Below, one piece after another: positions 8,634-43,648 of a stretch of 64,000 nucleotides of DNA. The position numbers and the translations under genes are program-made. The notes under the pieces were generated by a model that was not told where the DNA came from, searched no databases, and saw only the letters and a program-made list of their open reading frames with translations. Within the stretch, counting starts at the first letter, position 1; every line of letters begins with the position of its first letter. The stretch is from a virus: positions 62,001 through 126,000 of IMG/VR virus record IMGVR_UViG_3300020391_000003. One strand, given 5' to 3'.

Positions 8634-9173
8634 ATGTTAGAGGGAATATTTTTCGTTATAATTTTATGTCTTTTGTTTTATATAAAAGATCTTAAAAAAA
8701 GAGAAGATCCTAGAATTAGCGAGTTACAAGAAAAAGCTTGGACTTTAGAAGTTTCAGTTGAACAAGAGCGAGCCAATAAACAAGATTCAGAAAATCATGC
8801 AAAAATTAGCAGGCAATTTCTTGAAGACGAACGAGTTCACCGAAAGAATATCGAGAAACAACTTTTTGAAACTCAAGATAAATTAGAACAAGAAACAGAA
8901 CAGCGCAAAAAAGTTTTATCGCAAAAGAAAAGTGGCGAAGTTAGGCTAGGTCATATTGCTGAAACCTTAGCTCCATTTTTAGATCAGTTTGACTTTGATC
9001 CAGAAAATTGTTGCTTTATGGGCAAGCCCATAGATTATGTTTCTTTCGGGGATGATGAGATTACATTTATAGAGGTCAAGAGCGGTAATGCTCAACTTAG
9101 CAGCAAACAAAGACACATTAGAGATTTAGTTAAACAAAAATTAGTATCATGGAAAGAAGTAAGAATCAAGTAA
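8634..9173 (+). CDS. Holliday junction resolvase-related endonuclease (Endonuc_Holl family)
   Basis: The 179-residue product has an N-terminal membrane segment (IFFVIILCLLFYI), a long coiled coil (about residues 25-105), then a nuclease domain: GEVRLGHIAETLAPFL, YVSFGDDEITFIEVKSG and SSKQRHIRDLV. The D-E/I-x-F-I-E-V-K core is the PD-(D/E)xK active site of predicted endonucleases distantly related to archaeal Holliday junction resolvases. The membrane anchor plus coiled coil is usual for this family. It may act with the RuvB-like ATPase. It overlaps the dUTPase gene by 25 bases. Confidence 0.75.
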   Translation: MLEGIFFVIILCLLFYIKDLKKREDPRISELQEKAWTLEVSVEQERANKQDSENHAKISRQFLEDERVHRKNIEKQLFETQDKLEQETEQRKKVLSQKKSGEVRLGHIAETLAPFLDQFDFDPENCCFMGKPIDYVSFGDDEITFIEVKSGNAQLSSKQRHIRDLVKQKLVSWKEVRIK

Positions 9174-10489: not shown

Positions 10490-10726
10490 GTGCGAATATT
10501 ATTACTATTATATTTTCTTTCTGGTTGTACAGCGCAAAAATTGCCTCAACCTTCTGATACTGTATTTAAACCTGAAAATAGAAACTGGCTTTTAATATAT
10601 GAACTAGAGCTAGAAGCAGCATTAAAAAATGACGACACCGAAGCCTTCTATTTTTTTTGGTCAGAGTACATTAAAGAACTAGATAAACAAAAGCAAAATA
10701 GTGTAGATAATATCAATGAACTTTAA
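10490..10726 (+). CDS. Lipoprotein, paralogue of the one at 22818
   Basis: The 78-residue product has a short signal sequence ending in the lipobox FLSGC (Cys about residue 13), so it should be lipid-anchored after export. The C-terminal part NDDTEAFYFFWSEYI closely matches NNDTEAFEFFFQEYI in the lipoprotein at 22818-23156, so the two are paralogues. Start is GTG. Phage lipoproteins often act in superinfection exclusion or lysis; which one applies here is unknown. Confidence 0.6.
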   Translation: MRILLLLYFLSGCTAQKLPQPSDTVFKPENRNWLLIYELELEAALKNDDTEAFYFFWSEYIKELDKQKQNSVDNINEL

Positions 10727-12431
10727 GATATTTTTTATTAATTTAAAAGACAACCCTGAACCATGGATAAAAGCTCAAAATATTTTCTCCCTTTTACCTG
10801 ATACCCTCAAGGTTGAGCGAATTGATGCGGTAGATACTAGAAAAGATCTATCTGCATTAGAAAAATTTAATTTAAAACTAGATCCCGTTGGATTAGTAAA
10901 CAAGCTGTATTTCTCTGAAAGTCCAGGCGCCGCAGGTTATTACCTAAACCACTTTTCAGCGTGGCAGCAAATCATAGAACAAAAACTGGATTTTGCGTTG
11001 ATTCTTGAAGATGATGTAGTTTTAACTGATGTTGTTCAATTTTTGCTTGAAAATCCAGACTTACACGACGGAATTGAACTTATGCATCTTGCCAAAAAAA
11101 GTCGCGATAGACTTCATGCCTATATTTTGAGCTATAACGGGGCAGCCAAGTTAATTGAATTAACACTTGATCACAGTCCGCTATCTAAGATTGATCCGTC
11201 ACGCAGTTTATTTTTTAATGAAAAATTAAATTTAAAAAATATAATAAGCAAAAATACTGAATTTGACTGGTCAACTAAAAGAGCTATATCTTCGCCAGTT
11301 GATAAGTTTGTGATGTATTGCTGCTCAGAATTGGTAGATGATTGGCATAGGTTGAATCGTATAATGATGCCGATTATAGACTTGTGTTTAAGCTCTGCCA
11401 ATAATTATCCTGATGCCCCCAAAAAAGAAAATGAAATTATAAAATTGATGGATTCGTGGAGATTTGAGCATTGGAAGAAAAATCCTTCAATTACAGTTTG
11501 CATTTGTACATACAATAATTATGAACTTTTAGAACAAGCTTTCCTTTCTTGCCAAAATCAATTAGGTGATTACGAATATAAAATCATTATATTAGATAAT
11601 TCTCCACACGATCTCAGGGATAACTCTAAAATAATTAAACTTGTAGAAAATTATAATAAAAATTTTTGGCAAGAAAATATTTCTAAAAACCAATTAAGTC
11701 TCGCTAACTTTGGGGCAGAATATTATCATAAAATTACTCATGGCCTTTCTGGAGCTAGAAATGAATGCATAAAATTATGCACTACGGATTTAATCTACTT
11801 TATAGATGATGATGCTACATTGAAACCCAATGCTGTAGCAAACATGGTTTCCAAGTTTAAATCGCCTCAGATTGGGGTTGTTGGTGGAAAAGTTACTCCT
11901 GATTGGGGGGAGCTAATTCGCCCTAGCTGGCTTAGCGATCAAGAACTCGGCAATCTCTCAATGTGCGATTTTTCTGAAAAAGATTTATTCCTTGAAGATA
12001 GTGAATTTCCAATATGGCTTGTAGGTGCAAATATTTGCTTTAGAACTGAGTATGTGAGAGATGTTGGTGGATTTAATACTTCTCTTGGAAGAAAAGGTGG
12101 GGGCTCTAATCTATTAAGCGGTGAAGAAGATGATCTAGTCAGAAAAATTAGGCAAAATTATTATGCTCTTTATACCCCTGATTGTGAAATTTTACATAGG
12201 GTTGATGAATCCAGATTGAATCAAAGCTGGTTTGTTAAGCGAAATGCATGGCAGGCAGTATCAAATATGATTGGCGGGGTGCTATGGATAGATGAAAAAA
12301 AGGGCGTCAGCGAAATTGTTAAAAACAATATACATTTAATATTTGAAGAGCCAAAGTCTGACACTGATTTTGATTTAAAATGTAAAATTATTGCATACTT
12401 AACTCATCTGCTTCTCGATGGAGATATATAA
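10716..12431 (+). CDS. Two-domain glycosyltransferase (GT25-like plus GT2)
   Basis: The 571-residue protein is a fusion. The N-terminal third (IFFINLKDNPEPWIKAQN, then HFSAWQQIIEQKLDFALILEDDV) has the features of GT25 / LPS galactosyltransferase-like enzymes, including the E-D-D metal site. From about residue 253 a GT2 (GT-A) domain starts: ITVCICTYNNYELLEQAF, LIYFIDDDATLKPNA with the D-D-D metal motif, and GGFNTSLGRKGGGSNLLSGE. It overlaps the previous and next genes by 11 and 1 bases. It would add sugars to a phage or host surface glycan; the acceptor is unknown. Confidence 0.75.
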   Translation: MNFKIFFINLKDNPEPWIKAQNIFSLLPDTLKVERIDAVDTRKDLSALEKFNLKLDPVGLVNKLYFSESPGAAGYYLNHFSAWQQIIEQKLDFALILEDDVVLTDVVQFLLENPDLHDGIELMHLAKKSRDRLHAYILSYNGAAKLIELTLDHSPLSKIDPSRSLFFNEKLNLKNIISKNTEFDWSTKRAISSPVDKFVMYCCSELVDDWHRLNRIMMPIIDLCLSSANNYPDAPKKENEIIKLMDSWRFEHWKKNPSITVCICTYNNYELLEQAFLSCQNQLGDYEYKIIILDNSPHDLRDNSKIIKLVENYNKNFWQENISKNQLSLANFGAEYYHKITHGLSGARNECIKLCTTDLIYFIDDDATLKPNAVANMVSKFKSPQIGVVGGKVTPDWGELIRPSWLSDQELGNLSMCDFSEKDLFLEDSEFPIWLVGANICFRTEYVRDVGGFNTSLGRKGGGSNLLSGEEDDLVRKIRQNYYALYTPDCEILHRVDESRLNQSWFVKRNAWQAVSNMIGGVLWIDEKKGVSEIVKNNIHLIFEEPKSDTDFDLKCKIIAYLTHLLLDGDI

Positions 12432-13003
12432 TGATATGCGATAACAGAAATTTTATATTCGTTAGAGTTGCAAAGACTGGTTCTAGCAGTATCATTAAAG
12501 CACTTTTTCCAAAAAAAACTTGGCGGCAAAGAACAAAAGTCAATGATTGGGAAAAGTTTGATCCAAATCATTATCCTTTATTTAAAATTAAAGAAGTAAT
12601 TTCTAAAGAAAAATATGAATCATATTTTAAGTTTGCTTTTACTAGAAATCCATATGACAGATGCGTATCCGCATGGAAATATTCATTAAAAATGGGGTTT
12701 ACGAATCCAGAAAAAAAATTCCTGAATTACGTCAAGCAATTAAATCAAAATAATACGGACGCTAAGTATTTTAGCCAATATAAATTCGTGAAAGGATGCG
12801 ACTTTGTGGGCAAGCTTGAAAACCTTCAAGAAGACTTCGATATCATATGCGACAAAATTGGAATTCCACGTCAACAACTTCCACACGAAAATTCCACAAA
12901 ACACAAACACTACACCGAATACTACGATGGTGAAACTCGTAAGATTGTTGCGGAAAAATACGCAAAAGACATTGAGCATTTCAGATATGAATTTGGAGAG
13001 TAA
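12431..13003 (+). CDS. Sulfotransferase (family 2-like)
   Basis: The 190-residue protein begins NFIFVRVAKTGSSSIIKALF, matching the 5'-phosphosulfate-binding loop (V-x-K-T/C-G-S/T-S), and has FAFTRNPYDRCVSAWKY, the 3'-phosphate-binding motif, at about residues 73-89. Together these mark PAPS-dependent sulfotransferases that modify carbohydrates. Its place between glycosyltransferases suggests sulfation of the same glycan. The kinase domain of the protein at 18510-19331 resembles APS kinase and might supply PAPS, an inference. Confidence 0.75.
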   Translation: MICDNRNFIFVRVAKTGSSSIIKALFPKKTWRQRTKVNDWEKFDPNHYPLFKIKEVISKEKYESYFKFAFTRNPYDRCVSAWKYSLKMGFTNPEKKFLNYVKQLNQNNTDAKYFSQYKFVKGCDFVGKLENLQEDFDIICDKIGIPRQQLPHENSTKHKHYTEYYDGETRKIVAEKYAKDIEHFRYEFGE

Positions 13004-13013
13004 AGAACTAGTT

Positions 13014-13859
13014 ATGGGCTACAATTCAATATCTTTTGGAACAAGCTGCATGGGCAGATTAAATCATTTAAGCCAAACTTATATCCACAATATAGAAACT
13101 GCATTAAGCGTAGATCGTAATTCAAAATTTGTTTTGTTAAATTATAATTCTCAAGATGGAATGCATGAGTGGGTGCAAGAAAATTTATCTAGCTACATTC
13201 AAAAAGGGACGCTTAAATATTTGCGCACATCTACTCCGCAAGAATTTTCGCAGTCTCACACTAAAAATATAACAAGTAAGCATGCAGATGCAGATATTGT
13301 TTGCCTACTAGATGCAGATCATTTTTTAACCAAGCGCTATGTTCAGCAAAATTTACTTTTCTTTAACCAAGAGTTCGACTCACACAAAATATCTAGACCA
13401 AAAGCAGAAGGAGGAAAAGGAGGAAGAATTGCTTTTCAAAAAAAAGATTTTTTAGAAATTGGAGGATTTGACGAACGCATGAAATGCTGGGGACACGAAG
13501 ATACAGACTTTCATTATAGATTCACGCATTACTTTGATAATGTATCAGAAATTACACCCGATATAGAAGAAGAATCAATCATACAGCATGATGACGATTC
13601 TAGAAATTCAAACTCAAAACTTACTGCGGCTCCCGCGATTCATTCAAAAGAAGAGTTTCAAAAATTTTGCAATACAATGAAATGGCATAGAACAAAAGCT
13701 CAGACTTTAGGAATAGATTTTGAGGAATATTTTAAACTTCATGGGCCAAGAATTATCAACAGAGAGTTTTCTGTAAGAATAGAAGAAGAATTTAACAAAA
13801 CTAAAGATTTTTCACTTATGATATCGAACAAAAATTTAGATTGGGGCAACCTTTCATGA
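13014..13859 (+). CDS. GT-A glycosyltransferase with galactosyltransferase-type C-terminal domain
   Basis: About 281 residues. DADIVCLLDADHFLTKRYVQ holds the D-x-D metal site; KKDFLEIGGFDERMKCWGHE followed by DTDFHYR matches the Glyco_transf_7C / chondroitin-synthase type acceptor loop (G-G-F-D-E-x-x-x-x-W-G-x-E-D-x-D). The ATG at 13014 follows a GGAGAG 13 bases upstream; ATG 12987 inside the previous gene is an alternative. It ends in an ATGA overlap with the next gene. Confidence 0.72.
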   Translation: MGYNSISFGTSCMGRLNHLSQTYIHNIETALSVDRNSKFVLLNYNSQDGMHEWVQENLSSYIQKGTLKYLRTSTPQEFSQSHTKNITSKHADADIVCLLDADHFLTKRYVQQNLLFFNQEFDSHKISRPKAEGGKGGRIAFQKKDFLEIGGFDERMKCWGHEDTDFHYRFTHYFDNVSEITPDIEEESIIQHDDDSRNSNSKLTAAPAIHSKEEFQKFCNTMKWHRTKAQTLGIDFEEYFKLHGPRIINREFSVRIEEEFNKTKDFSLMISNKNLDWGNLS

Positions 13860-15568
13860 AAGAAAATTTAATTTTCAGTTCAATTGGAGATTTCGCCCAA
13901 CTGCCAAACTGGATTGGGTCAGATCAAAATTATGATATCTGGATAACTTATTATGGTGATGATGAAAACAAATACAATTACTATAAGCAGTATGTTCAGT
14001 TCATAAAAAAGTCCAAGGGCTCTAAGTTTCAGAATTTTAATCTCATATGGAAAGAGTTCCATTCAGAGTTAAACAAATATGAAAGATTTTTTATTTTAGA
14101 CGATGATATAATCTTTGATTCTTATAAAGATATTAATAAAATGTTTAATTTCGCCAAAGATCAGTCAACCTGGATTTGCGGCCCGACATTTAAATCTTCT
14201 GGAAAAATTTCACACAAAATCACCCAAACCGATGAAGGGGCATCTTTTAGATATGTAAATTTTGTTGAAATTAACACTCCTCTATTTTCTAATTTTGCTA
14301 TAAATAAATTTATGAAACACTATGATGACTCGCTTATTGGATGGGGCATAGATTTTTGCTACATTCAAATACTGGGTCACTCAGCCAAAAATAGATACGC
14401 TCTTGTTGATGAAGTTTCTGTAATAAATCCATTGCCCCAGAAAGCCTTAGATTTATGCAAGATTAATAATATAGACTTTTCATCTCAGGATTTTACGAGT
14501 AGCGAAAAGAGAATCGAACTTCAAGAATTCCTAGAGCAACCAACAGAGACAAGCGGAAGGGAACTCATGAATATAGAAGGCGCAGAAAACAGAAGCCTTA
14601 CATGGAAAAGTTTTTGTCAAAAAAATCAAATACGTCAACGTTTTGAATTAAAAAACTGGGAAGTAATTAAAAAAATAAAAAAAATCTTAATAACCAGAAT
14701 GCTCGGTAATGACCTGAGCGGACTTCATGGAGAAGAACAGACATTACGAAATTTAGAGTTTACCCTTAAAGAAGAACCGCATTTTGATAATGTAGATAAA
14801 CTTTTTATTTTAAACAGAATTGCCTGTAATTATAAAAAGCAAAAAATAATAAACCTGCTAAATGAATATGATGCAAGTTATGCGGAGATACCCTTTTGCT
14901 TTGAATCGTTTCAACAACTTACAAATGTAAGCTCAGAACTAAAACTAGAGCATTTTGACGAAAACAAAAACATAGACTTTATACTTCGACAACTTTTTGA
15001 GCATAATTTATATTTAGTCAACAATAATGCTTGTAGAAATTTCGCAATAGAATATGGAAAAAAAAGAGAATATGGCTGGACTTTTGTTTTAGACTCAAAT
15101 AATTTTTTTACAGAACAATTATTTAGCGATATTATAACAAATATCAATTTTAGCTCCGAGTATTTAGCGATACCACAAAAAAGACTTCAAGATGGTTATT
15201 TGCCAAATCAAATTTTACGTTGTGAAGGCTTTGAAAGATTGCTGGAATACCTACCCAATCAAGAGCCTCAGTTGGCATTTAAGCACACTTCAAATATCAC
15301 CTTTAATCAATTTATTCCTTACGGATTATCTCCAAAAGCAGAGCTTCTGAATGCGTTGAATATTCAAGGTAAATGGAATAATTGGCAAGAATATATTAGA
15401 CTTGGAATAAAACCAAGAAATTTTCCCGCAGCACGAACACAAACTCTTTCTTCGGTAATTAGACTTAATCCTCACTGCGAGGAAAACAATATTAATCAAA
15501 ATTGGATTTCTAGATGGAAAGGAATATATCTTTTATCTGAACAGTTAAGTAATAAGAAATATTTATAA
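13856..15568 (+). CDS. Large two-part protein of the glycan cluster, N-terminal glycosyltransferase-like
   Basis: The 570-residue product starts at an ATGA overlap. Residues 1-200 include ERFFILDDDIIFDSYKDIN and GWGIDFCYIQILG, which fit a GT-A type domain with D-D-D metal site, resembling DUF707 proteins. From about residue 270 a second region begins (KKILITRMLGNDLSGLHGEE), with FILNRIACNYKKQK and later GWTFVLDSNNF, again a D-x-N/D-type pattern. The C-terminal part contains no motif I can name. Role in glycan synthesis is inferred from position and the metal motif. Confidence 0.5.
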   Translation: MKENLIFSSIGDFAQLPNWIGSDQNYDIWITYYGDDENKYNYYKQYVQFIKKSKGSKFQNFNLIWKEFHSELNKYERFFILDDDIIFDSYKDINKMFNFAKDQSTWICGPTFKSSGKISHKITQTDEGASFRYVNFVEINTPLFSNFAINKFMKHYDDSLIGWGIDFCYIQILGHSAKNRYALVDEVSVINPLPQKALDLCKINNIDFSSQDFTSSEKRIELQEFLEQPTETSGRELMNIEGAENRSLTWKSFCQKNQIRQRFELKNWEVIKKIKKILITRMLGNDLSGLHGEEQTLRNLEFTLKEEPHFDNVDKLFILNRIACNYKKQKIINLLNEYDASYAEIPFCFESFQQLTNVSSELKLEHFDENKNIDFILRQLFEHNLYLVNNNACRNFAIEYGKKREYGWTFVLDSNNFFTEQLFSDIITNINFSSEYLAIPQKRLQDGYLPNQILRCEGFERLLEYLPNQEPQLAFKHTSNITFNQFIPYGLSPKAELLNALNIQGKWNNWQEYIRLGIKPRNFPAARTQTLSSVIRLNPHCEENNINQNWISRWKGIYLLSEQLSNKKYL

Positions 15569-15570
15569 TT

Positions 15571-16455
15571 ATGATATTATTAATTGGTGGTACTGGATAT
15601 GTCGGACTTAAATTTCAAGAGATTTTATCTTCACGCAATATTGAGTTTAGAAATCTTTCCCGTAATCAGGTGGATTATTATGATTTCAAAACATTGAACG
15701 ATGTTATTTCAAATGCAAAACCTGAGTTTGTATTAAACGCAGGCGGTTTTACAGGAAAACCAAACGTCGATCAATGTGAAATCAATAAAAGTGAAACAAT
15801 CATCGGAAACGTTCTTCTTCCTCAAATTCTTGGTCAAGTATGCGAACTTAACGATGTTCCATTGGTTCACGTATCAAGTGGTTGCATTTATGCAGGTGAC
15901 AAAGGAGAGAATACCGATGGAAGCAAAATCGGATTTACTGAAGAAGATACTCCGAACTTTTCATACGATCAACCTCCTTGTAGTTTTTATAGTGGAAGTA
16001 AAGCACTTGGCGAAGAAGTTTTAAGCAAGTTTGAAAAAGTATATACTTGCCGACTTCGTATTCCGTTTGACGAATTTGATTCAAACAGAAACTATCTTTC
16101 AAAGATTCAAAGATACGACAAAGTGTATAACGCAGTAAACTCAATTTCACATCGTGAAGAATTTGTAAATGCTTGTCTTGATTTACCATTGAATAAATGC
16201 GACTATGGAATCTACAATGTAACCAACGGAGGATATGTAACAACCAAGCAAGTAGTTGAGTGTATGAAGAAAAAATTTAAGTTGGAAAAAGAATTTGAGT
16301 ATTGGAAAGATGATTCAGAGTTTTATAGCAAAGGAGCAACTACACCAAGATCAAACTGCGTTATGGATAATAGCAAATTATTAAACACAGGAATCAAAAT
16401 ACGTTACTGCATGGATGCAATTGAAGATTCTTTTAACAAATGGAAGAAAGAGTAA
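15571..16455 (+). CDS. NAD(P)-dependent sugar epimerase/reductase, RmlD-like (extended SDR)
   Basis: The 294-residue protein has the Rossmann motif GGTGYVG at residues 6-12, a LNAGGFTGKPNVD loop after strand 4, HVSSGCIYAGD, and the catalytic Y-x-x-x-K as YSGSK. Length and the VDQCE segment fit dTDP-4-dehydrorhamnose reductase-like enzymes. It would make or modify a nucleotide sugar for the upstream glycosyltransferases. It starts 2 bases after the preceding stop, so it belongs to the same operon. Base composition here is slightly less AT-rich than its neighbours. Confidence 0.75.
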   Translation: MILLIGGTGYVGLKFQEILSSRNIEFRNLSRNQVDYYDFKTLNDVISNAKPEFVLNAGGFTGKPNVDQCEINKSETIIGNVLLPQILGQVCELNDVPLVHVSSGCIYAGDKGENTDGSKIGFTEEDTPNFSYDQPPCSFYSGSKALGEEVLSKFEKVYTCRLRIPFDEFDSNRNYLSKIQRYDKVYNAVNSISHREEFVNACLDLPLNKCDYGIYNVTNGGYVTTKQVVECMKKKFKLEKEFEYWKDDSEFYSKGATTPRSNCVMDNSKLLNTGIKIRYCMDAIEDSFNKWKKE

Positions 16456-16490
16456 ATGCAAATCAACATAATTGATTATGAATTCGGAGA

Positions 16491-16703
16491 TTAATTTTTT
16501 ATTTTTTTATAAATCTTTTTTCTTTGTGAATCTGTAAGATTTTCGTATTGCATTTGAGCTTTTAATTTGGCAGTCATCTTTGCCCTGATTACAAATCGAT
16601 CTTTATTTTCTTGCATATATTTTTGGTACAAATAATCAAGCACGTCTTTACGCTCTTGTGGACTTAGCATATCATGATATACACTTTTTTGCAAAAATTT
16701 CAT
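16491..16703 (-). CDS. Small basic protein
   Basis: The 70-residue product MKFLQKSVYHDMLSPQERKD... is Lys/Arg-rich and helical. It is divergent from the gene at 16746, and its upstream region contains a TATAAT on the minus strand. Not recognised. Confidence 0.5.
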   Translation of the reverse strand: MKFLQKSVYHDMLSPQERKDVLDYLYQKYMQENKDRFVIRAKMTAKLKAQMQYENLTDSQRKKIYKKIKN

Positions 16704-16710
16704 TTATTGC

Positions 16711-16739
16711 TTTACATTATAAGTAAAATATGTTAAGAT
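16711..16739 (+). promoter_or_regulatory. Promoter with GTG leaderless start
   Basis: TTTACA and TAAGAT are 17 bases apart; the GTG at 16746 begins 6 bases after the -10, the same geometry as the ATG cases. Confidence 0.6.
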
Positions 16740-16745
16740 CATAAA

Positions 16746-16997
16746 GTGTCAAAAATAACCAAAGAATTAAAAAACGCCACCTTTATCTATGACGAAGAAA
16801 AGAAAACGTTCACAATTATGGAAGCGGATGGATTCAATGGACATATTGAGTTAAACAAAGTTTACGCTTTTGCTTTTATGCGTTTTGTTGTTCGAATGGC
16901 TCAAAGAAATTGGCTTAGATCAAATAAAAGTATTTCCAAAATAATTGAAGAAGAAGAACTTGAAGAAAATGATTCAAATCAATTAAATTTATTTTAA
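16746..16997 (+). CDS. Hypothetical protein
   Basis: The 83-residue product starts with GTG. A beta-like N-terminal half (NATFIYDEEKKTFTIMEADG) is followed by a helix and an acidic tail ending SNQLNLF, which resembles the sliding-clamp-binding Q-x-x-L-x-x-F motif (QLNLF). Clamp binding is inference from five residues. Confidence 0.5.
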   Translation: MSKITKELKNATFIYDEEKKTFTIMEADGFNGHIELNKVYAFAFMRFVVRMAQRNWLRSNKSISKIIEEEELEENDSNQLNLF

Positions 16998-17137
16998 TGA
17001 GTAAATATACATTAGATGTTTCCAAAGAAGAAATCATAGAAATTTATGTCAAAGAATGGGTACTAAATTGGTGCAAAAAGAACCATCCAGAAGTTTTCGA
17101 TAAAGCTAAAGCTTATATCACAGAAAATTTGAAATAA
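16997..17137 (+). CDS. Small hypothetical protein
   Basis: The 46-residue product MSKYTLDVSKEEIIEIYVKE... begins at a TAATG overlap with the previous stop. It is helical with one Cys. Not recognised. Confidence 0.45.
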   Translation: MSKYTLDVSKEEIIEIYVKEWVLNWCKKNHPEVFDKAKAYITENLK

Positions 17138-17216
17138 TATTTAAACTTGCGGCTAGTATTAATAAAGCCGAAATTTGTTTTATTGTTACACAATGAATCA
17201 TAAATTATTTTTATTT

Positions 17217-17807
17217 TTAGTTTTTTTTCTTTGCATGATATAAATCGTCCTTAATATCTTTAATAACTTTTTCAAGATAAGAAACTCTTTTATCTCTTGA
17301 TACAAAAGGAACAGACCAAAACTGACGAGTACGAAACCAAAGCCTCCAATTCCAGCCAAACACAAAAGAATATACTCCCATTATCAATCGCAACTTTACA
17401 GAGTTTGCATATAAAGTAAGAACTGGTAGCGCAGGAGCTCCGTGAGTTATATATGTTCTAACGATTCTATCTTTTAGCAGAGCGGATGGAAGCCCCATAG
17501 TCTTGGTGATAGACTTAAAATTATATGCAAATCCTGGAGTAAAAACTTCGTCAAAAAATACTTCAAGTTTTGGAGTGCAACGAAACCACCAAACAGGTGA
17601 TACAAAATAAATATGAGTTGACCAAGAAACATAATCTTTATATGTTTTTACTAAATCAGTATTCTCTCGCCTGAAATTTTCTTGGTACAATTCTATTGTT
17701 TTTATTTCAACTTTCTTGTTTTCCAAAATAGTTTTAATTGTTCTAAAAATTCCATCATAGCAGAAGGAATCTGTTTCGGGATGTCCGATTATTATTAGTG
17801 CTTTCAT
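17217..17807 (-). CDS. NAD(P)H:quinone oxidoreductase-like flavoprotein
   Basis: The 196-residue protein has a flavodoxin-like (Flavodoxin_2) fold: strand 1 then GHPETDSFCYDG (FMN/FAD phosphate loop), and YFVSPVWWFRCTPKLEVFFD with a following GFAYNF, a signature of the KefF/MdaB/NQO family (P-x-W/Y-W-x-x-x-P). It would reduce quinones by two electrons from NAD(P)H. The ATG lies 1 base after the SdhC-like stop, so it is the last gene of the minus-strand operon; a longer in-frame start would overlap that gene. The hydrophobic stretch near residue 150 may touch the membrane. Confidence 0.75.
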   Translation of the reverse strand: MKALIIIGHPETDSFCYDGIFRTIKTILENKKVEIKTIELYQENFRRENTDLVKTYKDYVSWSTHIYFVSPVWWFRCTPKLEVFFDEVFTPGFAYNFKSITKTMGLPSALLKDRIVRTYITHGAPALPVLTLYANSVKLRLIMGVYSFVFGWNWRLWFRTRQFWSVPFVSRDKRVSYLEKVIKDIKDDLYHAKKKN

Positions 17808-17808
17808 A

Positions 17809-18513
17809 TTAAAAAAGGTTGTTGTTAAATACTTCAATTAAACCAAATTTTTGTGTGACAACTGCAATAGGAATAATTGCAAAGCCAATAAAAATAATAT
17901 AAGCATACGCATAAGAAACTATTTCAAGTTTTGGTCTCATTGCCTCGGTACGCAATCCAAGAGATTGAAACGTACTTGAAACTCCGTGAACAAGATGCTT
18001 GCAAAGCAAAAACATTGCGAGAACATAAAAAATGCTTATCCATTCTTTTTTGAATCCATAAATCATCATAGCATAAACATCGTGAATTTGCTCACCATTG
18101 GGTGATCCAACTGTTGTCATAAGGTTATCGTATTCAGGATAAATAATGCGAATAGTATAATGAAACAAATGAAAGAAAATGAAAGCAAAAATAATAGAAC
18201 CACTTAGACCCATACGCAATGAATGCCATTTGCTTTTTTTGGTAACTTCTATTTTATTTTTAATTGGTCTTGCTTTTTTGTTTTCACGAATTAATGCCAC
18301 TGCTACGACAATATGAATAAACACACTTGCAAACAATATTAAACGAGAACCCCATAATATAGGCATCGGTAGATTTTGCAAAAAGTATGCGTATGCGTTA
18401 ATGGCATCTTGACCAATAAAAATCTGAAGATTGCCTGTCATATGCACAAATACAAATCCTACGAGAACAAGACCAGTAAGTGCCATTAGATATTTTTTAA
18501 TTAATGAATTCAT
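17809..18513 (-). CDS. sdhC: Succinate dehydrogenase cytochrome b558 subunit (SdhC-like)
   Basis: This 234-residue protein has five or six membrane segments and His at about 24, 67, 115, 118, 173 and 176. FVHMTGNLQIF and CKHLVHGVSSTFQSLG match the di-haem b558 subunit of succinate dehydrogenase / fumarate reductase found in Bacteroidota, Chlamydiae, Verrucomicrobia and relatives. It would bind haem b and anchor SdhA/SdhB, passing electrons to quinone. No SdhA or SdhB genes are in the window, so it would have to work with host subunits or replace the host one. It overlaps the upstream gene by ATGA. Confidence 0.82.
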   Translation of the reverse strand: MNSLIKKYLMALTGLVLVGFVFVHMTGNLQIFIGQDAINAYAYFLQNLPMPILWGSRLILFASVFIHIVVAVALIRENKKARPIKNKIEVTKKSKWHSLRMGLSGSIIFAFIFFHLFHYTIRIIYPEYDNLMTTVGSPNGEQIHDVYAMMIYGFKKEWISIFYVLAMFLLCKHLVHGVSSTFQSLGLRTEAMRPKLEIVSYAYAYIIFIGFAIIPIAVVTQKFGLIEVFNNNLF

Positions 18514-19331
18514 TCTGGTCTTTTGCCCAAAGGCTTGCCGTCTTGACCAATCTCACCCTTTCTTATTTTAGTGGCAGAAACTTCTTGAAGCTCTTTGCTT
18601 AGTTCAAGCTGTTCTATATTATAACCAACACCTCTGCCGTAAAATACGTCAGTAATATTGGGTAATTCTACTACTTTTATTTTATTACCAAATTCCAAAC
18701 AAGCCGCATGAATTTCTTGTTTAACTTTTTCAAAATCATAAGGATTACTTTCATCAGTTCCAGCAACATCCCTTAGAGCTATACAGCATTGACCTGTTCT
18801 TTTAATTGCTTCTGCGACCAAAGTCTTGTGTCCGACATGAAATGGCTGATATCGACCGATTAATAATGCAGTGGGAGCTTGATTATCCCATTTTTCTGTT
18901 TCATAAATATTCTTCAAAGCCTTTTCGCACCACTCTTCAGGAGTCCCCTCTCTAAGAATCAAGTCTTGATCATCCCATCTTTTGTCTTTTGTTGGGTCTT
19001 CAAAAAGTTTGTTTGTATCTGCATATCTACCTTCTTTAATTCTATCAACCCATATTACAAAATCAGCATTAAATGCTTCTCTAGCTTCTTCTGTTGGACA
19101 ACAAAAATCCGAAACAACATATCCTCCACCAAGAGCCGCCCAATCTGCAAGTTTGCCCATTCTTCTTGCATGCTCTATACGATCTTCAGCAGAAAATCCA
19201 AGGTCTTTATGTATTTCTTGTCTGACTGCATCAGCGTTAAACCATACAGCATTTAGTCGTGGCACTAATTTTTCTGCTAAAGTTGTTTTTCCAGAACCTG
19301 GCAACCCCATAATTAAAATCTTTCTTTTCAT
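18510..19331 (-). CDS. Kinase-nucleotidyltransferase fusion (APS-kinase-like plus NMNAT-like)
   Basis: The 273-residue protein has two domains. Residues 1-150 have P-loop GLPGSGKT (9-16), FNADAVRQEIHKDLGFSAED and GYVVSDFCCPTEEARE, strongly resembling adenylylsulfate kinase. Residues 150-273 have LIGRYQPFHVGHKTL (the H-x-G-H nucleotidyltransferase motif of NMN adenylyltransferases) and EVSATKIRKGE (the S-x-T-x-I-R motif). NadR joins the same kinds of domain in the opposite order. Possible jobs are NAD synthesis or PAPS supply; the ATP-sulfurylase motif is not seen, so NMN adenylyltransferase is favoured for the C-terminal half. First gene of a three-gene minus-strand operon. Confidence 0.7.
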   Translation of the reverse strand: MKRKILIMGLPGSGKTTLAEKLVPRLNAVWFNADAVRQEIHKDLGFSAEDRIEHARRMGKLADWAALGGGYVVSDFCCPTEEAREAFNADFVIWVDRIKEGRYADTNKLFEDPTKDKRWDDQDLILREGTPEEWCEKALKNIYETEKWDNQAPTALLIGRYQPFHVGHKTLVAEAIKRTGQCCIALRDVAGTDESNPYDFEKVKQEIHAACLEFGNKIKVVELPNITDVFYGRGVGYNIEQLELSKELQEVSATKIRKGEIGQDGKPLGKRPE

Positions 19332-19336
19332 TGACT

Positions 19337-19365
19337 ATTTTACACTTTGTTGAATACATATTCAA
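19337..19365 (-). promoter_or_regulatory. Promoter of the minus-strand redox operon
   Basis: On the minus strand TTGAAT and TAAAAT are 17 bases apart; the ATG (19331) begins 5 bases after the -10. Its -35 shares the palindrome at 19350-19365 with the divergent tRNA promoter. Confidence 0.65.
19350..19365. promoter_or_regulatory. Palindrome shared by divergent -35 boxes
   Basis: TTGAATACATATTCAA has two 7-base arms (TTGAATA / TATTCAA) around a 2-base centre. Each arm holds one of the two divergent -35 boxes, so any protein bound here would block both promoters. It may also simply be a side effect of two facing TTGAAT boxes. Confidence 0.5.
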
Positions 19366-19377
19366 ATTTATTATTAT
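19350..19377 (+). promoter_or_regulatory. Promoter of tRNA-Thr and pyrophosphatase
   Basis: TTGAAT and TATTAT are 16 bases apart; the tRNA begins 8 bases after the -10. Confidence 0.6.
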
Positions 19378-19385
19378 AAATAATA

Positions 19386-19462
19386 TGCCACCTTAGCTCA
19401 GTTGGTAGAGCACCTCACTTGTAATGAGGATGTCGTCAGTTCGACTCTGACAGGTGGCTCCA
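19386..19462 (+). tRNA. tRNA-Thr (anticodon TGT)
   Basis: The sequence folds as a complete cloverleaf: acceptor stem GCCACCT/AGGTGGC, D loop with AGTTGGTAGA, anticodon stem CCTCA/TGAGG with loop CTTGTAA giving anticodon TGT (reads ACA), T stem with TTCGACT loop, and discriminator T followed by an encoded CCA. ACA is a frequent codon in these AT-rich genes, so it would help translation of phage messages. The pyrophosphatase ATG lies 6 bases after CCA. Confidence 0.96.
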
Positions 19463-19468
19463 TTTTAC

Positions 19469-19981
19469 ATGAACTTATACAATATACCCATACATCAAAA
19501 ATCGCCAAATATAGTTAATGCTATCGTAGAAATACCAAAAGGTACTAGCGTCAAATATGAATACGATAAAGACTTTGGAGTTTTTAAATATGACAGAAGT
19601 CTTACTTCTGCAATGACATATCCATGTAGTTATGGATATATTCCAAGTACATTAGGAGAAGACGGTGATCCTCTTGATTTTTTGGTTTATAATTCTACTC
19701 CTATTGACCGAGCTACTTTAGTTGAATGCAAGGTAATTGGAATTCTTGATATGGAAGATGATGGAGAAAAAGACTATAAAATACTTGGAGTACCTACTTC
19801 TCATGTTCGCAGACATTACAGTTTAAAAAGTATTGATCCAATGTTTCTTAAAATAGCTTCAAACTTTTTTGCACACTATAAAGATTTAAGCAAAAAACAA
19901 GTTAAAGTTTTTGATTGGCATGAAAAAGATCATGCTCAAAAAATAATCAATGAAGCAATACAGAGAACACCCACCGATTAA
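19469..19981 (+). CDS. ppa: Soluble inorganic pyrophosphatase (family I)
   Basis: The 170-residue protein has the family signature EDGDPLDFLVYN (three Asp of the active site), an early NAIVEIPKGTSVKYEYD and YPCSYGYIPSTLG, and KDYKILGVP. Length matches bacterial PpA (about 175). It splits pyrophosphate released by DNA synthesis and by nucleotidyltransferases such as the one encoded divergently. The chosen ATG lies 6 bases after the tRNA CCA; an upstream in-frame start would lie inside the tRNA. Phage copies of this gene are uncommon. Confidence 0.9.
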   Translation: MNLYNIPIHQKSPNIVNAIVEIPKGTSVKYEYDKDFGVFKYDRSLTSAMTYPCSYGYIPSTLGEDGDPLDFLVYNSTPIDRATLVECKVIGILDMEDDGEKDYKILGVPTSHVRRHYSLKSIDPMFLKIASNFFAHYKDLSKKQVKVFDWHEKDHAQKIINEAIQRTPTD

Positions 19982-21558: not shown

Positions 21559-21587
21559 TTGACATCTTTTGTCTTTCGTGCTAAAAT
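21559..21587 (+). promoter_or_regulatory. Promoter of the UV endonuclease gene
   Basis: TTGACA and TAAAAT are 17 bases apart; the ATG at 21595 begins 7 bases after the -10 and excludes an in-frame start at 21559 that lies inside the promoter. Confidence 0.8.
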
Positions 21588-21594
21588 GAACTCT

Positions 21595-22632
21595 ATGAAC
21601 GAAACAATACTAGGCTTAACTTGCATCAGTGAACAACTGAAAGACAAAGACAAGAAAAAATACTCTTTTCAAACTATGACTCGCAAGAGATTTAACGATC
21701 TTTGTGTAAAAGAAAGCAGAGATGAAGCCATTGATCAACTTTCTGAAAGGATTATTCACAATATTCGCACGACTCAGTACATTTTGCGTCATTGCATTAC
21801 AAATAACATTGTTCACTATCGTCTTAGTTCTGCTTTGTTTCCTCTTCTTACTGATTCAACTCTCGATCTCTCTCTTGAGTCTTTGCCGAATTATTCCACG
21901 ATTAAACACGAACTAAGATTTGCGGGGCTTATTGCTTTTTCTTTTAAAATGTCTATCAGTATTCATCCCGATCAGTTTAATGTTCTTGCATCTACAAACG
22001 AAATGTCTGTTGCAAAAAGCATCAAAGAACTTAATTTTCAGTCTGATATTATGGACATGATGGGTCTACCTCAAGATCATACTGCCCCTATGAATATTCA
22101 TATCAATGGTACTCCTCCCGAAATAGAATCAAAAGATGATCCTGATGTAGTGAAAAATGTTAGAATAAAAGAAATGGCAGAAAGATTTTATAATAACCTT
22201 ATGCGTTGTCAGCCAGGAGTATTCAATCGCTTGACCATCGAAAATGAAGATAAAGGTTTTTGGAATGTAGACAACATTATTAAATTTAGTGAATATATTT
22301 TCAAAAAATATGGGTTTAACCTTCCAATCTGTTATGACAACTTACATGACTTTTGCAATCCGTCCGAAGAACTTAGCACTTCATTTCAAGCAGAAAGATG
22401 TGCGTATACATGGGTAAACCCACTCAAGCAAGATGACCACTTTGTTGCTCCTGTGTTTCATTGGTCAGAGGGTAAACCCGAAAAGCCAAGGGCACACGCA
22501 GATTATTTTGCACTAGGAAATTTTCCACCGCATATCGCTATTGATCCTAAAAAACCTGTTAAATGGGAATGCGAAGTTAAGCAAAAAGACAAAGCGATTT
22601 CATTGTTGAAAAAAAATTTACAAAAAGTATGA
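21595..22632 (+). CDS. uvsE: UV damage endonuclease (UvsE/UVDE)
   Basis: The 345-residue TIM-barrel protein shows the UVDE motifs: NIVHYRLSSALFPLLTD, MSISIHPDQFNVLAS, MNIHINGTPPE, LTIENEDKGF and FHWSEGKPEKPRAHADYF, with the conserved metal-binding His, Glu and Asp residues. It nicks DNA 5' of UV photoproducts, starting an alternative excision repair. Length and motif order are as in bacterial UvsE. The phage probably uses it to repair its own genome in sunlit water. The next small gene overlaps by ATGA. Confidence 0.92.
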   Translation: MNETILGLTCISEQLKDKDKKKYSFQTMTRKRFNDLCVKESRDEAIDQLSERIIHNIRTTQYILRHCITNNIVHYRLSSALFPLLTDSTLDLSLESLPNYSTIKHELRFAGLIAFSFKMSISIHPDQFNVLASTNEMSVAKSIKELNFQSDIMDMMGLPQDHTAPMNIHINGTPPEIESKDDPDVVKNVRIKEMAERFYNNLMRCQPGVFNRLTIENEDKGFWNVDNIIKFSEYIFKKYGFNLPICYDNLHDFCNPSEELSTSFQAERCAYTWVNPLKQDDHFVAPVFHWSEGKPEKPRAHADYFALGNFPPHIAIDPKKPVKWECEVKQKDKAISLLKKNLQKV

Positions 22633-39984: not shown

Positions 39985-40134
39985 ATGAAGCAAATAAACA
40001 CAAATAAGTATTTGGTTGGCAAAAAGAAGTTGGGCAAAGGCAAAGTCGGAGCTAGAGGTGGAGTTGGTGTTCCAACAGGAGCTTTCGGAGGAAAATCCAA
40101 GTTCAACAAGAAAAAGCTTGACAAGTCTGAGTAA
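39985..40134 (+). CDS. Small basic Gly-rich protein
   Basis: The 49-residue product MKQINTNKYLVGKKKLGKGK... is Lys/Gly-rich throughout, with GARGGVGVPTGAFGGKSKF. Likely disordered and nucleic-acid-binding. The -35 of the next promoter is in its last codons. Confidence 0.5.
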   Translation: MKQINTNKYLVGKKKLGKGKVGARGGVGVPTGAFGGKSKFNKKKLDKSE

Positions 40135-40145
40135 TCTGTCATAAT
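40118..40145 (+). promoter_or_regulatory. Promoter of CTGTCATAAT type
   Basis: TTGACA and CATAAT are 16 bases apart, with ATCTGT directly before the -10. The gene starts at 40184, so this one has a leader, with AAGGAAA before ATG. Confidence 0.78.
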
Positions 40146-40183
40146 AGAGTACATCAACCATTAATTGCTAACGAAAGGAAATT

Positions 40184-40405
40184 ATGAGCATTGCAAAAAA
40201 CGCACGAGCAAGTCAAGTTATGAACGACATACAGAGTGGCAAACACACGCCCATCAATAAAAGAGGTAAGTTTGCAAATTTCGGTTCAATCGCAGAAGAT
40301 AGTATTTATTATCACACAATGCTTGCAGATCAAGCTGATGCAAAACAAAAAGCTAAAGCTCAACAAGCTAAAGCAAGACTTAGATTAAAAGGAATTATTG
40401 TTTAA
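40184..40405 (+). CDS. Small basic helical protein
   Basis: The 73-residue product MSIAKNARASQVMNDIQSGK... is basic, ending in an Ala/Lys/Gln helix (AKQKAKAQQAKARLRLKG). AAAGGAAATT before the ATG gives one of the few clear ribosome-binding sites here. Not recognised. Confidence 0.55.
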   Translation: MSIAKNARASQVMNDIQSGKHTPINKRGKFANFGSIAEDSIYYHTMLADQADAKQKAKAQQAKARLRLKGIIV

Positions 40406-40407
40406 TT

Positions 40408-40680
40408 ATGCACCCAAAAGTAGAACAACCTGTTGGTTCGTATACCGAATTTGAAAAGCTTGCCTGGATAAGCACCAAAGCAATTCCTGCCATAGGAAGT
40501 AAGCTGAATGTAAAAATTAATGGAATTGGCGAATCTATTGTTAAGAAGTATTTCGTAGAGTATGGCTTTATTGGGATGCTTGTTACTCCTCAGAATCCAC
40601 CTGCTTGGTACATCAAGCAAAACGGAAAAGGTGCTGATTGCCATGTTTATCCTGCTGAATGTGAAGAGCTAAGAGGATGA
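40408..40680 (+). CDS. Hypothetical protein
   Basis: The 90-residue product has TKAIPAIGSKLNVKINGIGE and AEYGFIG-like turns (VEYGFIGMLVTPQNPPAWYI), suggesting a small beta-barrel. It starts 2 bases after the previous stop. Not recognised. Confidence 0.45.
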   Translation: MHPKVEQPVGSYTEFEKLAWISTKAIPAIGSKLNVKINGIGESIVKKYFVEYGFIGMLVTPQNPPAWYIKQNGKGADCHVYPAECEELRG

Positions 40681-40686
40681 TTAACA

Positions 40687-40893
40687 ATGGACTGGATAGT
40701 TAGAACATACGACGAGCAAGACAATCAAATCTCGTCCTTTATTATACAGAATAGAACAGAGTCTCAGGCAGAGCGTGAGGCGATGCACGATACAGAAGTT
40801 AGATCCGCCGAAGATTGGAGTATGGAGGAATACAATGGAATGATTAACCCATCAGATAAAAGCAAAATAAATAAAAAAACTCTTGACAAATAA
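40687..40893 (+). CDS. Hypothetical protein
   Basis: The 68-residue product starts MDWIVRTYDEQDNQISSFII, a W-x-V-R-x-Y/F-D...I-x-x-x-x-I-x-x-R-T-E-x-x-A-x-x-E-A pattern typical of small phage proteins. The promoter of the RNA gene overlaps its last codons. Confidence 0.5.
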   Translation: MDWIVRTYDEQDNQISSFIIQNRTESQAEREAMHDTEVRSAEDWSMEEYNGMINPSDKSKINKKTLDK

Positions 40894-40911
40894 TAAATAA
40901 TAGAGTATAAT
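40883..40911 (+). promoter_or_regulatory. Perfect consensus promoter of the RNA gene
   Basis: TTGACA and TATAAT are both perfect and 17 bases apart. No ORF follows for about 380 bases, so the transcript beginning near 40918 is best read as non-coding. Confidence 0.85.
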
Positions 40912-40917
40912 AGATAC

Positions 40918-41257
40918 ATAAATTTGAGAACAAAACTCAAATAAATAAAATAAATTGATCTTTAACATTTTAAACACTTTGGAAGGGCTTATAATCCTTC
41001 CTGTGGGTGACTGAGCAAGCCTGTGATGAGCGGGCTAAGGTACGCAGATTCCTTGTGGTGAGGTAGCAGAGTCCAATCGGATGAGCTGATGACGAATACC
41101 AAGTCTAATTTGTGGTGCGAAGTAGGAAACACTTGAACTGATGTTCATCCCGAAAAGTCGAGGGTATACAGTAATCCCTTCCCACACTAATTTTCTTAAT
41201 CATACAATCCCTAACCCTGTCCAAGACAAAGAAGAACCTCTTGGATGGGGTTTTTTT
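40918..41257 (+). ncRNA. Candidate structured non-coding RNA, unassigned
   Basis: An ORF-free transcription unit lies between a perfect promoter and an intrinsic terminator. The middle (about 40981-41186) is far more GC-rich than its surroundings. GGAAGGG at 40981 pairs with CCCTTCC at 41176, closing a ~200-base domain. Inside are AGCCTG/CGGGCT (41018/41031), a TAAGG/CCTTG hairpin (41036/41051), TACCA/TGGTG (41097/41113) and GAAC-TGAT-GTTC (41135-41146). GGAAGG can instead pair with CCTTCC at 40996, and CCCACA at 41181 with TGTGGG at 41002, so two exclusive folds exist. It matches no RNA family I know. Confidence 0.65.
41213..41257 (+). terminator. Intrinsic terminator of the RNA gene
   Basis: The inverted segments AACCC plus TCCAAGA (41213-41226) and TCTTGGA plus GGGTT (41239-41252) pair into an interrupted stem, followed by a run of seven T. 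Confidence 0.75.
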
Positions 41258-41258
41258 G

Positions 41259-41288
41259 TTTGACAGTCGCATCAAAACCTGGCATAAT
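41259..41288 (+). promoter_or_regulatory. Promoter, leaderless type
   Basis: TTGACA and CATAAT are 18 bases apart; the ATG at 41296 begins 7 bases after the -10. Its -35 lies just after the terminator T-run. Confidence 0.7.
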
Positions 41289-41295
41289 TATAATC

Positions 41296-41550
41296 ATGAA
41301 CACATTATTACAAATCTTCACGAATTGGGGTTACATTACCGATTCACAACTCAAAGAACTTGTTGAATACTTTCCGCACACGAAAGTGGTTATTCAATGG
41401 GGCAGAATGAAACGCGAGCGTCTTCCAGCATGGGAAGCAATTGAACGCATGGAAAAAGTAGAAGCAGAGGACATTGATTATGTTCGTTCTGTCTTTTTTA
41501 CTTCTCAGGACATGGACAAGCTCAGAGAAGTATTTCACATTGTTCATTAA
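41296..41550 (+). CDS. Hypothetical protein
   Basis: The 84-residue product MNTLLQIFTNWGYITDSQLK... is helical with acidic segments. The start is set by the promoter rather than an upstream in-frame ATG-like codon at 41245 that lies within the terminator. Not recognised. Confidence 0.5.
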   Translation: MNTLLQIFTNWGYITDSQLKELVEYFPHTKVVIQWGRMKRERLPAWEAIERMEKVEAEDIDYVRSVFFTSQDMDKLREVFHIVH

Positions 41551-41624
41551 TGGAAATCTCAATCATAATAATAATCAGTTTTACAATAGGTATGATAAGA
41601 GCAATAACAGATAATAAACAATAA
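41550..41624 (+). CDS. Tiny membrane peptide
   Basis: The 24-residue product MEISIIIIISFTIGMIRAIT... has one short hydrophobic segment. It starts at a TAATG overlap with the previous gene. Reality uncertain. Confidence 0.3.
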   Translation: MEISIIIIISFTIGMIRAITDNKQ

Positions 41625-41730
41625 AATAATAAAAGACAAATACTTAAATACTAAATAATCAAGTTCAAATAATTAAATAAAAATTTAAAGTAAATTGCGT
41701 TCAATAGAATAAGTTAATTGAACGAAAAGT

Positions 41731-41796
41731 TTTGTGCAGCTCGGCCCCCCCTGCAATCGTATTGTGCAAGAAATTAAATGAATTGTTTTCTTGACA
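41731..41796 (+). repeat. GC-box element A
   Basis: AAAAGTT lies just upstream; then a C-rich core (GGCCCCCCC, 41743-41751) flanked by TGCAG/CTGCA, then TGCAATCGTATTGTGCA (41752-41768) and the CTTGACA promoter of the next gene 23 bases later. The 17-base segment recurs at 52053-52069. One of seven related elements. Confidence 0.7.
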
Positions 41797-41818
41797 TTCA
41801 CATCAATTCTGTCATAAT
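41791..41818 (+). promoter_or_regulatory. Promoter of CTGTCATAAT type after GC-box A
   Basis: TTGACA and CATAAT are 16 bases apart with TTCTGT before the -10; the ATG at 41825 begins 6 bases after. Confidence 0.8.
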
Positions 41819-41824
41819 GAAGTA

Positions 41825-42262
41825 ATGATTAAGCGAGACTCCCGATACAAGATAAACTTCAACAAAAAAGTCTTTGTTTACAAAAACCTTCACAAAAACT
41901 GTTGGAGCGTAAAGCAAAGCGGATTAGTCAAAGCTCACGCTCTCGAATTGAATCTTTATGATTGCGTTCTCAAGGTCAGCAAAGCGGGTCAGCAAAGAGT
42001 GCGTAATGAAAAGTGTAAAAATGTTCATGCAGGTGTTAGCGGTTATCTTGAACCATACCACTTAGGATTGTCACACGAAGCAGAACTGAATGATGAAGCA
42101 AGAACATTTCAACGAGCTTGGGAAGGTTTACCAAATTCGCAGATGAGAGAGATTACTTACAATCCTTACAAGTATGACTCATTCGTTCATGCAGATGATC
42201 AAACTCCTCGTTGGTTTGGGTCTTTTGTAAGATTATTAGAAAATCAAGTATTTATTGCTTGA
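41825..42262 (+). CDS. Hypothetical conserved phage-type protein
   Basis: The 145-residue product has VYKNLHKNCWSVKQSGLVKA and LELNLYDCVLKVSKAGQQRV, which I recall from hypothetical proteins of phages and plasmids. It is basic with several conserved-looking Trp, Cys and His. A later part holds YLEPYHLG and GSFVRLLENQ. No function can be given. Confidence 0.55.
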   Translation: MIKRDSRYKINFNKKVFVYKNLHKNCWSVKQSGLVKAHALELNLYDCVLKVSKAGQQRVRNEKCKNVHAGVSGYLEPYHLGLSHEAELNDEARTFQRAWEGLPNSQMREITYNPYKYDSFVHADDQTPRWFGSFVRLLENQVFIA

Positions 42263-42287
42263 CTCAAACACCCCCAAATGATAGGAT
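42259..42287 (+). promoter_or_regulatory. Promoter, leaderless type
   Basis: TTGACT and TAGGAT are 17 bases apart; the ATG at 42294 begins 6 bases after the -10. It overlaps the end of the previous gene. Confidence 0.65.
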
Positions 42288-42293
42288 ACATTT

Positions 42294-42527
42294 ATGACAC
42301 AATCACAAATTAGAGAAATGATTATTCAACTCACGAAGGGTAATCTCGCATGGGCAGATCCAATGTCTAAAGTTTGCCTTGATCAACACGAACTTCATCC
42401 CAAAAAGTTTCCGCTTGGCAGTACTTTTCAGTCAGCAGAAGAAGTTTTGGATGACATCATTTCAGACTTGACATCTTTCAGAGATGAGCTTAGAATAGAA
42501 TCATCTTTTCAATCAGCACAATTGTAA
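42294..42527 (+). CDS. Hypothetical protein
   Basis: The 77-residue product is helical and acidic (LASEEVLDDIISDL-type, EEVLDDIISDLTSFRDELRI). Not recognised. Confidence 0.5.
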   Translation: MTQSQIREMIIQLTKGNLAWADPMSKVCLDQHELHPKKFPLGSTFQSAEEVLDDIISDLTSFRDELRIESSFQSAQL

Positions 42528-42543
42528 ACAAAAGGAAAAAATT

Positions 42544-42954: not shown

Positions 42955-42956
42955 TT

Positions 42957-43157
42957 ATGAAAGAACTACAAGACATTATTAACGATCTGCAAGCTAGACT
43001 AGCAATAGTTGGTGGAGGCAGAATTATTATTACTAGCGATGATGTTTCAATTAGCTTGGGAGAAGAACACGAAAACTTTGAGGTTCAAGAAAAAAGTAGT
43101 TGTGATTCTCTGACCAATCCCGATGTTGAAATGTACAACCAAATGTGGGGACAATAA
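42957..43157 (+). CDS. Small hypothetical protein
   Basis: The 66-residue product MKELQDIINDLQARLAIVGG... has a coiled-coil start and a strand part. It begins 2 bases after the previous stop. Not recognised. Confidence 0.5.
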   Translation: MKELQDIINDLQARLAIVGGGRIIITSDDVSISLGEEHENFEVQEKSSCDSLTNPDVEMYNQMWGQ

Positions 43158-43158
43158 A

Positions 43159-43625: not shown

Positions 43626-43648
43626 GGATCGCTCTTTTACTTCATAAT
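43620..43648 (+). promoter_or_regulatory. Promoter after GC-box B
   Basis: TTGACA and CATAAT are 17 bases apart; the ATG at 43656 begins 7 bases after the -10. Confidence 0.8.

Follow-up and report, generated by a model that had tools for sequence, protein, structure and literature searches.

The DNA analyzed here, referred to below as the window, is a stretch of 64,000 bases (bases 62001-126000) of the IMG/VR virus record IMGVR_UViG_3300020391_000003, whose full length is 184,324 bases. It carries a cassette of three minus-strand genes, flanked by short phage ORFs on one side and by a tRNA gene on the other (positions are those of the window):

18510-19331, minus strand: kinase (APS-kinase-like) fused to a cytidylyltransferase-like domain, 273 aa, at the head of the cassette (phrog_10255, PF01583, PF01467)
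17809-18513, minus strand: sdhC, b558-type succinate dehydrogenase membrane anchor, 234 aa (TIGR02046, tree, conserved sites, model)
17217-17807, minus strand: Flavodoxin_2 (NAD(P)H:quinone reductase-like) protein, 196 aa from the ATG at 17807 (PF02525, 3lcm)
19387-19462, plus strand: tRNA-Thr (TGT), a flank of the cargo site shared with a relative
17000-17138, plus strand: small phage ORF that borders the cargo site on its opposite side and is conserved in the relative G472 (alignment with locus L248)
16746-16997, plus strand: small phage ORF, a syntenic marker with 60 to 64% identity in two relatives
19454-19981, plus strand: soluble inorganic pyrophosphatase, outside the minus-strand cassette and adjoining the site (PF00719, E 9.7e-49)

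All three minus-strand genes reported by the first-pass annotation are present, with matches to TIGR02046, Flavodoxin_2, and phrog_10255 that lie far above chance. They had been described as overlapping, which is correct for the kinase gene and sdhC (4 bases, ATGA); sdhC and the flavoprotein gene are one base apart (TAA-T-ATG) and overlap only if the latter begins at the TTG from which it was first listed (17217-17837), the ATG at 17807 being the more likely start. Family and database queries with the flavoprotein used 17217-17804, with the first Met left out. A scan of 16900-19700 for promoters and terminators returned a site count not above that of shuffled sequences. Next to the cassette, the pyrophosphatase gene overlaps the end of the tRNA-Thr gene; homologues of it occur in 9 of 33 kinase-bearing loci (39-68%, plus one short match), and a phage pyrophosphatase could help to drive DNA synthesis and nucleotidyl transfer forward.

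The record is a genuine tailed-phage genome, with genes in its remaining part for the large subunit of terminase, a tail sheath, DNA polymerase, replicative helicase, ribonucleotide reductase, RIIA, RIIB, and DNA ligase; a large, uncultured, marine, myovirus-like phage is the best explanation of it. Its terminase has at least 593 relatives in IMG/VR, the best 80 of which are 69-99% identical, whereas the best match among 50,697 phage records reaches about 25% identity, so that the lineage is widespread but without a close relative among those records. The GC content is 0.37-0.41 at 40001-58000 of the window and 0.29-0.36 over most of the remainder. Elsewhere the window encodes a UvdE-type UV endonuclease (21559-22632, PF03851), which has relatives in related phages, and a series of large proteins (10716-16455) that ends in an RmlD/epimerase-like gene (15571-16455) and is possibly a surface-sugar island; PHROG gave no match at 1e-5 for three of these large proteins, nor did Pfam for the one of 575 aa. 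At 14758-17220 of locus L006, an 820-aa ATP-dependent protease of family phrog_4871 adjoins the DNA polymerase gene.

How the cassette sits in this genome can be read from G472 (terminase 90%), which is syntenic with most of the window in reversed orientation. In both genomes the marker ORF (16746-16997) and the small ORF (17000-17138) border the site at one end, and tRNA-Thr (TGT) borders it at the opposite end; the DNA between these flanks encodes kinase, sdhC, and flavoprotein on the minus strand in the window and a few small, unrelated ORFs in G472. Because the syntenic relative holds other small genes there, beside the same tRNA-Thr, we regard the cassette as cargo swapped into phage DNA. 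The marker ORF is present in 2 of 45 terminase-related records, G472 and G503; in G503 different small ORFs follow the marker, whose surrounding 11 kb yielded no tRNA, the cargo-site comparison comprising two relatives and being clean in one. The same flanks bear on whether the operon might be host contamination absent from other contigs, as the first-pass annotation had considered. A chimeric assembly or bacterial contamination within the virus record would fit the finding that no other contig has sdhC or its junction with the kinase gene (a junction pattern gave 0 matches in viral contigs), and to that extent the concern was justified, since this gene pair is missing elsewhere. However, sdhC overlaps a gene of a phage family by four bases, both flanks are syntenic with G472, the third-position GC content (GC3) and base composition are those of the phage, and the cassette ends without sdhA or pyrG, unlike bacterial loci. 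Contamination is unlikely, and we would put the odds of either artifact very low indeed.

The identity of the middle gene is supported by its family profile, its conserved sites, and its fold. Against TIGR02046 (cut-off 96), SdhC reaches 166.9 bits and spans positions 2-211 of the 212 in the profile; against Pfam Sdh_cyt it reaches 23.7, slightly short of the cut-off of 25.8. It has histidines at positions 24, 67, 115, 173, and 176, and also at 118; H24, H67, H115, H173, and H176 are each found in 94 of 94 bacterial rows of our alignment. In Wolinella and Bacillus, four histidines are axial haem ligands; with the pairing taken from Wolinella, H24/H115 and H67/H173 would presumably hold two haems in the phage protein. 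A check of the haem ligands had been proposed from the outset, and it came out in favor of SdhC, with these histidines and other conserved sites kept relative to bacterial homologues, including the conserved cytoplasmic-side residues K6, K7, E77, N78, R82, P83, S180, F182, Q183, and G186. The AlphaFold2 model (mean pLDDT 83.2) has five helices, as in the anchor fold of di-haem complex II. Its best PDB match is 9lay_C, chain C of the Chloroflexus SDH (Foldseek E 4.5e-10; Z 21.5, rmsd 3.3, 214 aligned), followed by the fumarate reductase anchors of Desulfovibrio and Wolinella with Z 12-14; as Z near 13 is about background for helical proteins, only the Chloroflexus match is strong on its own.

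The remark that SdhC comes without SdhA or SdhB holds across the full 184,324 bases of the record, in which, read in pieces, neither partner was found (tblastn, best E 0.5). Such partner genes define the bacterial operon rather than the SdhC subunit family; sdhA adjoins sdhC in 109 of 110 bacterial loci, which marks SdhAB as the normal partner of SdhC. Since the phage appears to encode neither subunit, any succinate:quinone role would need those of the host, as had been argued.

The nearest SdhC proteins come from marine Opitutales (Verrucomicrobiota) genomes (56-64% identity), in which sdhC adjoins pyrG and is the first gene of sdhCAB; in the bacterial genome contigs, the phage SdhC alone as query gave no match, and an alignment query gave matches. 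In a 95-row tree, whose 94 bacterial rows are the 80 best matches of one scan and 30 of another minus 16 duplicates, phage SdhC falls within a 24-row marine Opitutales clade with support of 100/98; its exact sister is less well supported (88/84), and the phage branch measures 0.55. Plasmids gave six SdhC matches, with identities of at most 32%. On sequence comparison, the phage sdhC is thus shown to be of Opitutales origin.

The phage gene is also intact and apparently under selective constraint. Of the positions with a conservation of at least 95% among the 94 bacterial SdhC proteins, the phage keeps all 34, and departures from the clade consensus affect 2 of 48 highly conserved positions versus 77 of 171 others (p 1.5e-8, with conservation measured in the 71 bacterial rows outside the clade); four bacterial control rows put through the same test showed the same pattern (0-1 of 48 versus 44-50 of 171). 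Among the 27 nearest rows, 95 positions are invariant (at least 95%); the phage protein differs at ten of them (A26T, F59I, A68I, T70V, R79K, G95K, L117F, F119Y, W192M, and W205Y), and five of these ten lie at most 3 residues from histidines 24, 67, 115, or 118. Compared segment by segment with the divergence within the clade, the phage protein appears to have changed most, about twofold, in the N terminus, TM1, the cytoplasmic loop 2-3, and TM3, and least in TM4, the C terminus, and the periplasmic loops, all of these being short segments; part of the divergence of loop 2-3 and TM3 may be AT bias.

Such changes are what one might look for if the phage SdhC interfered with the host, displacing or titrating its anchor or its SdhAB and so slowing or redirecting complex II, for instance by holding back succinate oxidation or by diverting SdhAB to the reduction of oxygen or some other acceptor. 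The ten altered clade-invariant residues, half of them near histidines, and the more diverged loop 2-3 agree with this, as does the downregulation of host SDH in other infections described in excerpts of two reports (PMC7354516, PMC6359870). Yet keeping every one of the 34 most conserved sites goes beyond the needs of a mere decoy, and the pattern of change resembles that of functional bacterial controls, so that we consider interference doubtful.

SdhC is very rare in related phages. It was found (as TIGR02046) in 0 of 78 records, most of them partial, that is, in none of 33 kinase-bearing records and none of 45 further terminase-related ones (45 of 80 loci), and with so many partial records its absence from any single one says little; the expectation that related phages might keep the three genes together was therefore not borne out. 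Three differing pattern scans of viral contigs also found none, using short, exact patterns that distant copies can escape; the phage records contained none, and no viral structure matched the SdhC model at E 0.001. As it is known from one record only, sdhC is no stable strategy of the lineage.

The gene at the head of the cassette has a much wider distribution. Its product matches phrog_10255 (E 2e-54) as well as PF01583 and PF01467 and contains Walker-A GLPGSGKT and H-x-G-H motifs; the kinase half resembles APS kinase by sequence and by fold model, the second half of the model being of low confidence. An earlier reading as a kinase-NMNAT-like fusion stands as far as kinase and nucleotidyltransferase are concerned, while the NMNAT part comes down to a weak domain resemblance, with scores below all NMNAT and NadR cut-offs (TIGR01526, 20.1 against 341; NF005988, 19.4 against 201; NF003786, 34 against 397). 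With these scores and an APS-kinase-like kinase half, a function as an NAD enzyme is unproven, and we did not retain it. The gene occurs in 33 other viral contigs, with 71-91% identity in 32 and as a fragment in the 33rd. Among the 32 contigs in which the ORF was found, 15 have a same-strand ORF that starts within about 36 bases of the kinase end, and 8 of the 10 of these that were scanned match differing Pfam families: inositol-phosphatase family, NUDIX, sugar-nucleotide dehydratase, subtilase, HAD, 4Fe-4S ferredoxin, glycosyltransferase, and nucleoside deoxyribosyltransferase. The kinase-nucleotidyltransferase gene is common among phages and stands at the head of a variable cargo slot; it is no dedicated partner of SdhC. 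The proposal of a coherent three-gene unit acting on redox and the NAD pool is not supported, in view of this varied cargo and of the NMNAT/NadR scores. At 8801-9103 of locus L017, a 4Fe-4S ferredoxin lies directly behind the kinase, another electron-transfer cargo in the same slot.

The diversity of genes behind the kinase, together with the presence of sdhC in a single record, is what would be expected if sdhC and the flavoprotein gene were passive or accessory cargo, with a small, condition-dependent benefit or none, while random host genes turn over in this position. Against this stand the long branch (0.55) combined with strong constraint, and a GC3 like that of the phage: phage sdhC has 0.24, nine other genes of the window 0.18-0.30, and eight Opitutales sdhC genes 0.32-0.58, which means that the gene either has long resided in low-GC phage DNA or came from an unsampled low-GC relative. 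Part of the 0.55 branch could accordingly predate the transfer, in an unsampled low-GC bacterium, which would suit passive cargo. On balance we find this distinctly unlikely.

The third gene was called quinone reductase-like, an assignment that its score of 65 bits against PF02525 (gathering cut-off 27, residues 1-124) bears out; the nearest solved structure is 3lcm, a putative oxidoreductase/NADPH quinone oxidoreductase. It stays below the named NCBIfam equivalogs (KefF, 31.6 against 162 bits; KefG, 22.4 against 210; PRK09739, 13.1 against 240), its identity to every relative found is less than 35%, and judged from its sequence it is a divergent Flavodoxin_2 protein. No relatives at E 1e-3 were found in the viral contigs scanned and none in 41 related virus records, the latter in a search without a positive control. 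Weak matches occur in 16 of 288 Verrucomicrobiota genomes (30% identity for the best-scoring one), in plasmids (at most 27% identity among the ten records listed), and in four Listeria fragments (about 27%). A Flavodoxin_2 gene near sdhCAB in two Opitutales genomes was considered as donor and set aside; the L070 copy looks, by eye, like an unrelated FMN-reductase type.

One base separates the flavoprotein gene from sdhC in the same operon, and the record has no SdhA or SdhB; the two proteins might be the halves of a membrane NAD(P)H:quinone oxidoreductase of a new, two-part type, with the flavoprotein in place of SdhAB. We think this very improbable, because the conserved residues facing SdhAB are kept, no close flavoprotein homologue was found beside bacterial sdhC, and Flavodoxin_2 enzymes normally act alone, with soluble or membrane quinones.

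The most likely role of the phage SdhC, to which we assign a probability of about one half (0.52), is to join host SdhA/SdhB and thereby renew or tune the flow of electrons from succinate to quinone. Our reasons for viewing it as an anchor of host complex II are that nothing recognized replaces SdhA/SdhB and that the conserved residues are kept; the tight coupling of sdhC to the kinase and flavoprotein genes points the same way. This suggests that the phage renews or replaces the complex II anchor of its host during infection. In outline, the phage would have acquired sdhC, without its partner genes, from a marine bacterium of the Opitutales (Verrucomicrobiota). In the cargo site beside tRNA-Thr, the gene would then have come to lie behind the phage kinase-nucleotidyltransferase, together with a quinone reductase of flavodoxin fold. 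During infection the protein would enter the membrane, acquire host haem b, and bind pre-existing or new host SdhA-SdhB, putatively yielding a complex II with a phage-made anchor. The flow from succinate to (mena)quinone and the supply of quinol might thus be kept up, or perhaps retuned, as host transcription shuts down, and the flavoprotein may in parallel feed electrons from NAD(P)H to quinone. Host sdh transcripts fall during lytic infection by another phage, YerA41, according to an excerpt of that study (PMC7354516), which makes renewal plausible, if unproven.

A more specific form of this, which we put forward tentatively, is that the phage SdhC swaps into host SdhAB and alters the redox tuning of haem and quinone, the co-transcribed NAD(P)H:quinone reductase being a second input. 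If true, the swap would turn succinate oxidation, or its reverse, to phage needs; it would be a respiratory counterpart of the photosystem subunits of cyanophages, and the lineage may then infect Verrucomicrobiota.

Marine Opitutales are a candidate host, suggested by the origin of sdhC. The window contains a phage tmRNA (4721-5082) with the tag AKNINSVESFSQEGLALAA; this tag is unlike the three Opitutales tags compared and lends that host no support. Phage remnants in 372 Opitutales genomes likewise gave no support: no close terminase relative was found there, and 2 of the genomes have distant matches (best 30-32%). One published lytic phage of Verrucomicrobiota is known to us, P8625 (PMC4642752). 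If our reading is true, the present locus offers a starting point for finding the hosts of this marine phage lineage, which is widespread but lacks close relatives in culture.

Complex II is the meeting point of the TCA cycle and the respiratory chain, and phages supply single subunits of photosynthetic complexes. As a host-derived metabolic gene inside a phage genome, sdhC is a candidate auxiliary metabolic gene, which would boost or redirect host metabolism during infection, and, if its role is as we propose, the control of heterotrophic respiration by phages can be put to a direct test, both the gene and the host complex being defined. In the open-access PMC literature searched, we came across no sdhC within the gene context of a phage, and we found no takeover of complex II by a lone anchor subunit in the collections and literature searched. 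Reads of sdh (or sdhB) are mentioned among marine viromes in excerpts of two studies (PMC4053976, PMC3877843), one of which warns of cellular contamination (PMC3877843); as far as these excerpts go, such signals are at the level of reads or gene families, without phage gene context, whereas here sdhC lies in a defined phage locus.

Compared with its bacterial counterparts, the sdhCAB of Opitutales and the SDH of Chloroflexus (9LAY), the phage SdhC is likewise full length, with five helices and the conserved histidines, but it is encoded alone behind a phage kinase, differs at 10 clade-invariant residues, and has a low GC3. The flavoprotein shares the family fold and the N-terminal half of Flavodoxin_2 reductases (3lcm; KefF- and MdaB-like) but is less than 35% identical to the relatives found and reaches no equivalog cut-off. 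The closest parallel among phages is offered by the electron-transport subunits encoded by cyanophages, which, in an excerpt of one account, comprise psbA/D1, photosystem I with PsaJF, and NDH-I subunits (PMC3903132). As in those phages, which apparently keep up or redirect electron flow, the phage contributes one or a few membrane subunits to an electron-transport complex of its host and depends on the host for their partners; unlike in those phages, the complex concerned is complex II, the host is respiratory and probably heterotrophic, no photosynthesis is involved, and the contribution is a single anchor, known from one record.
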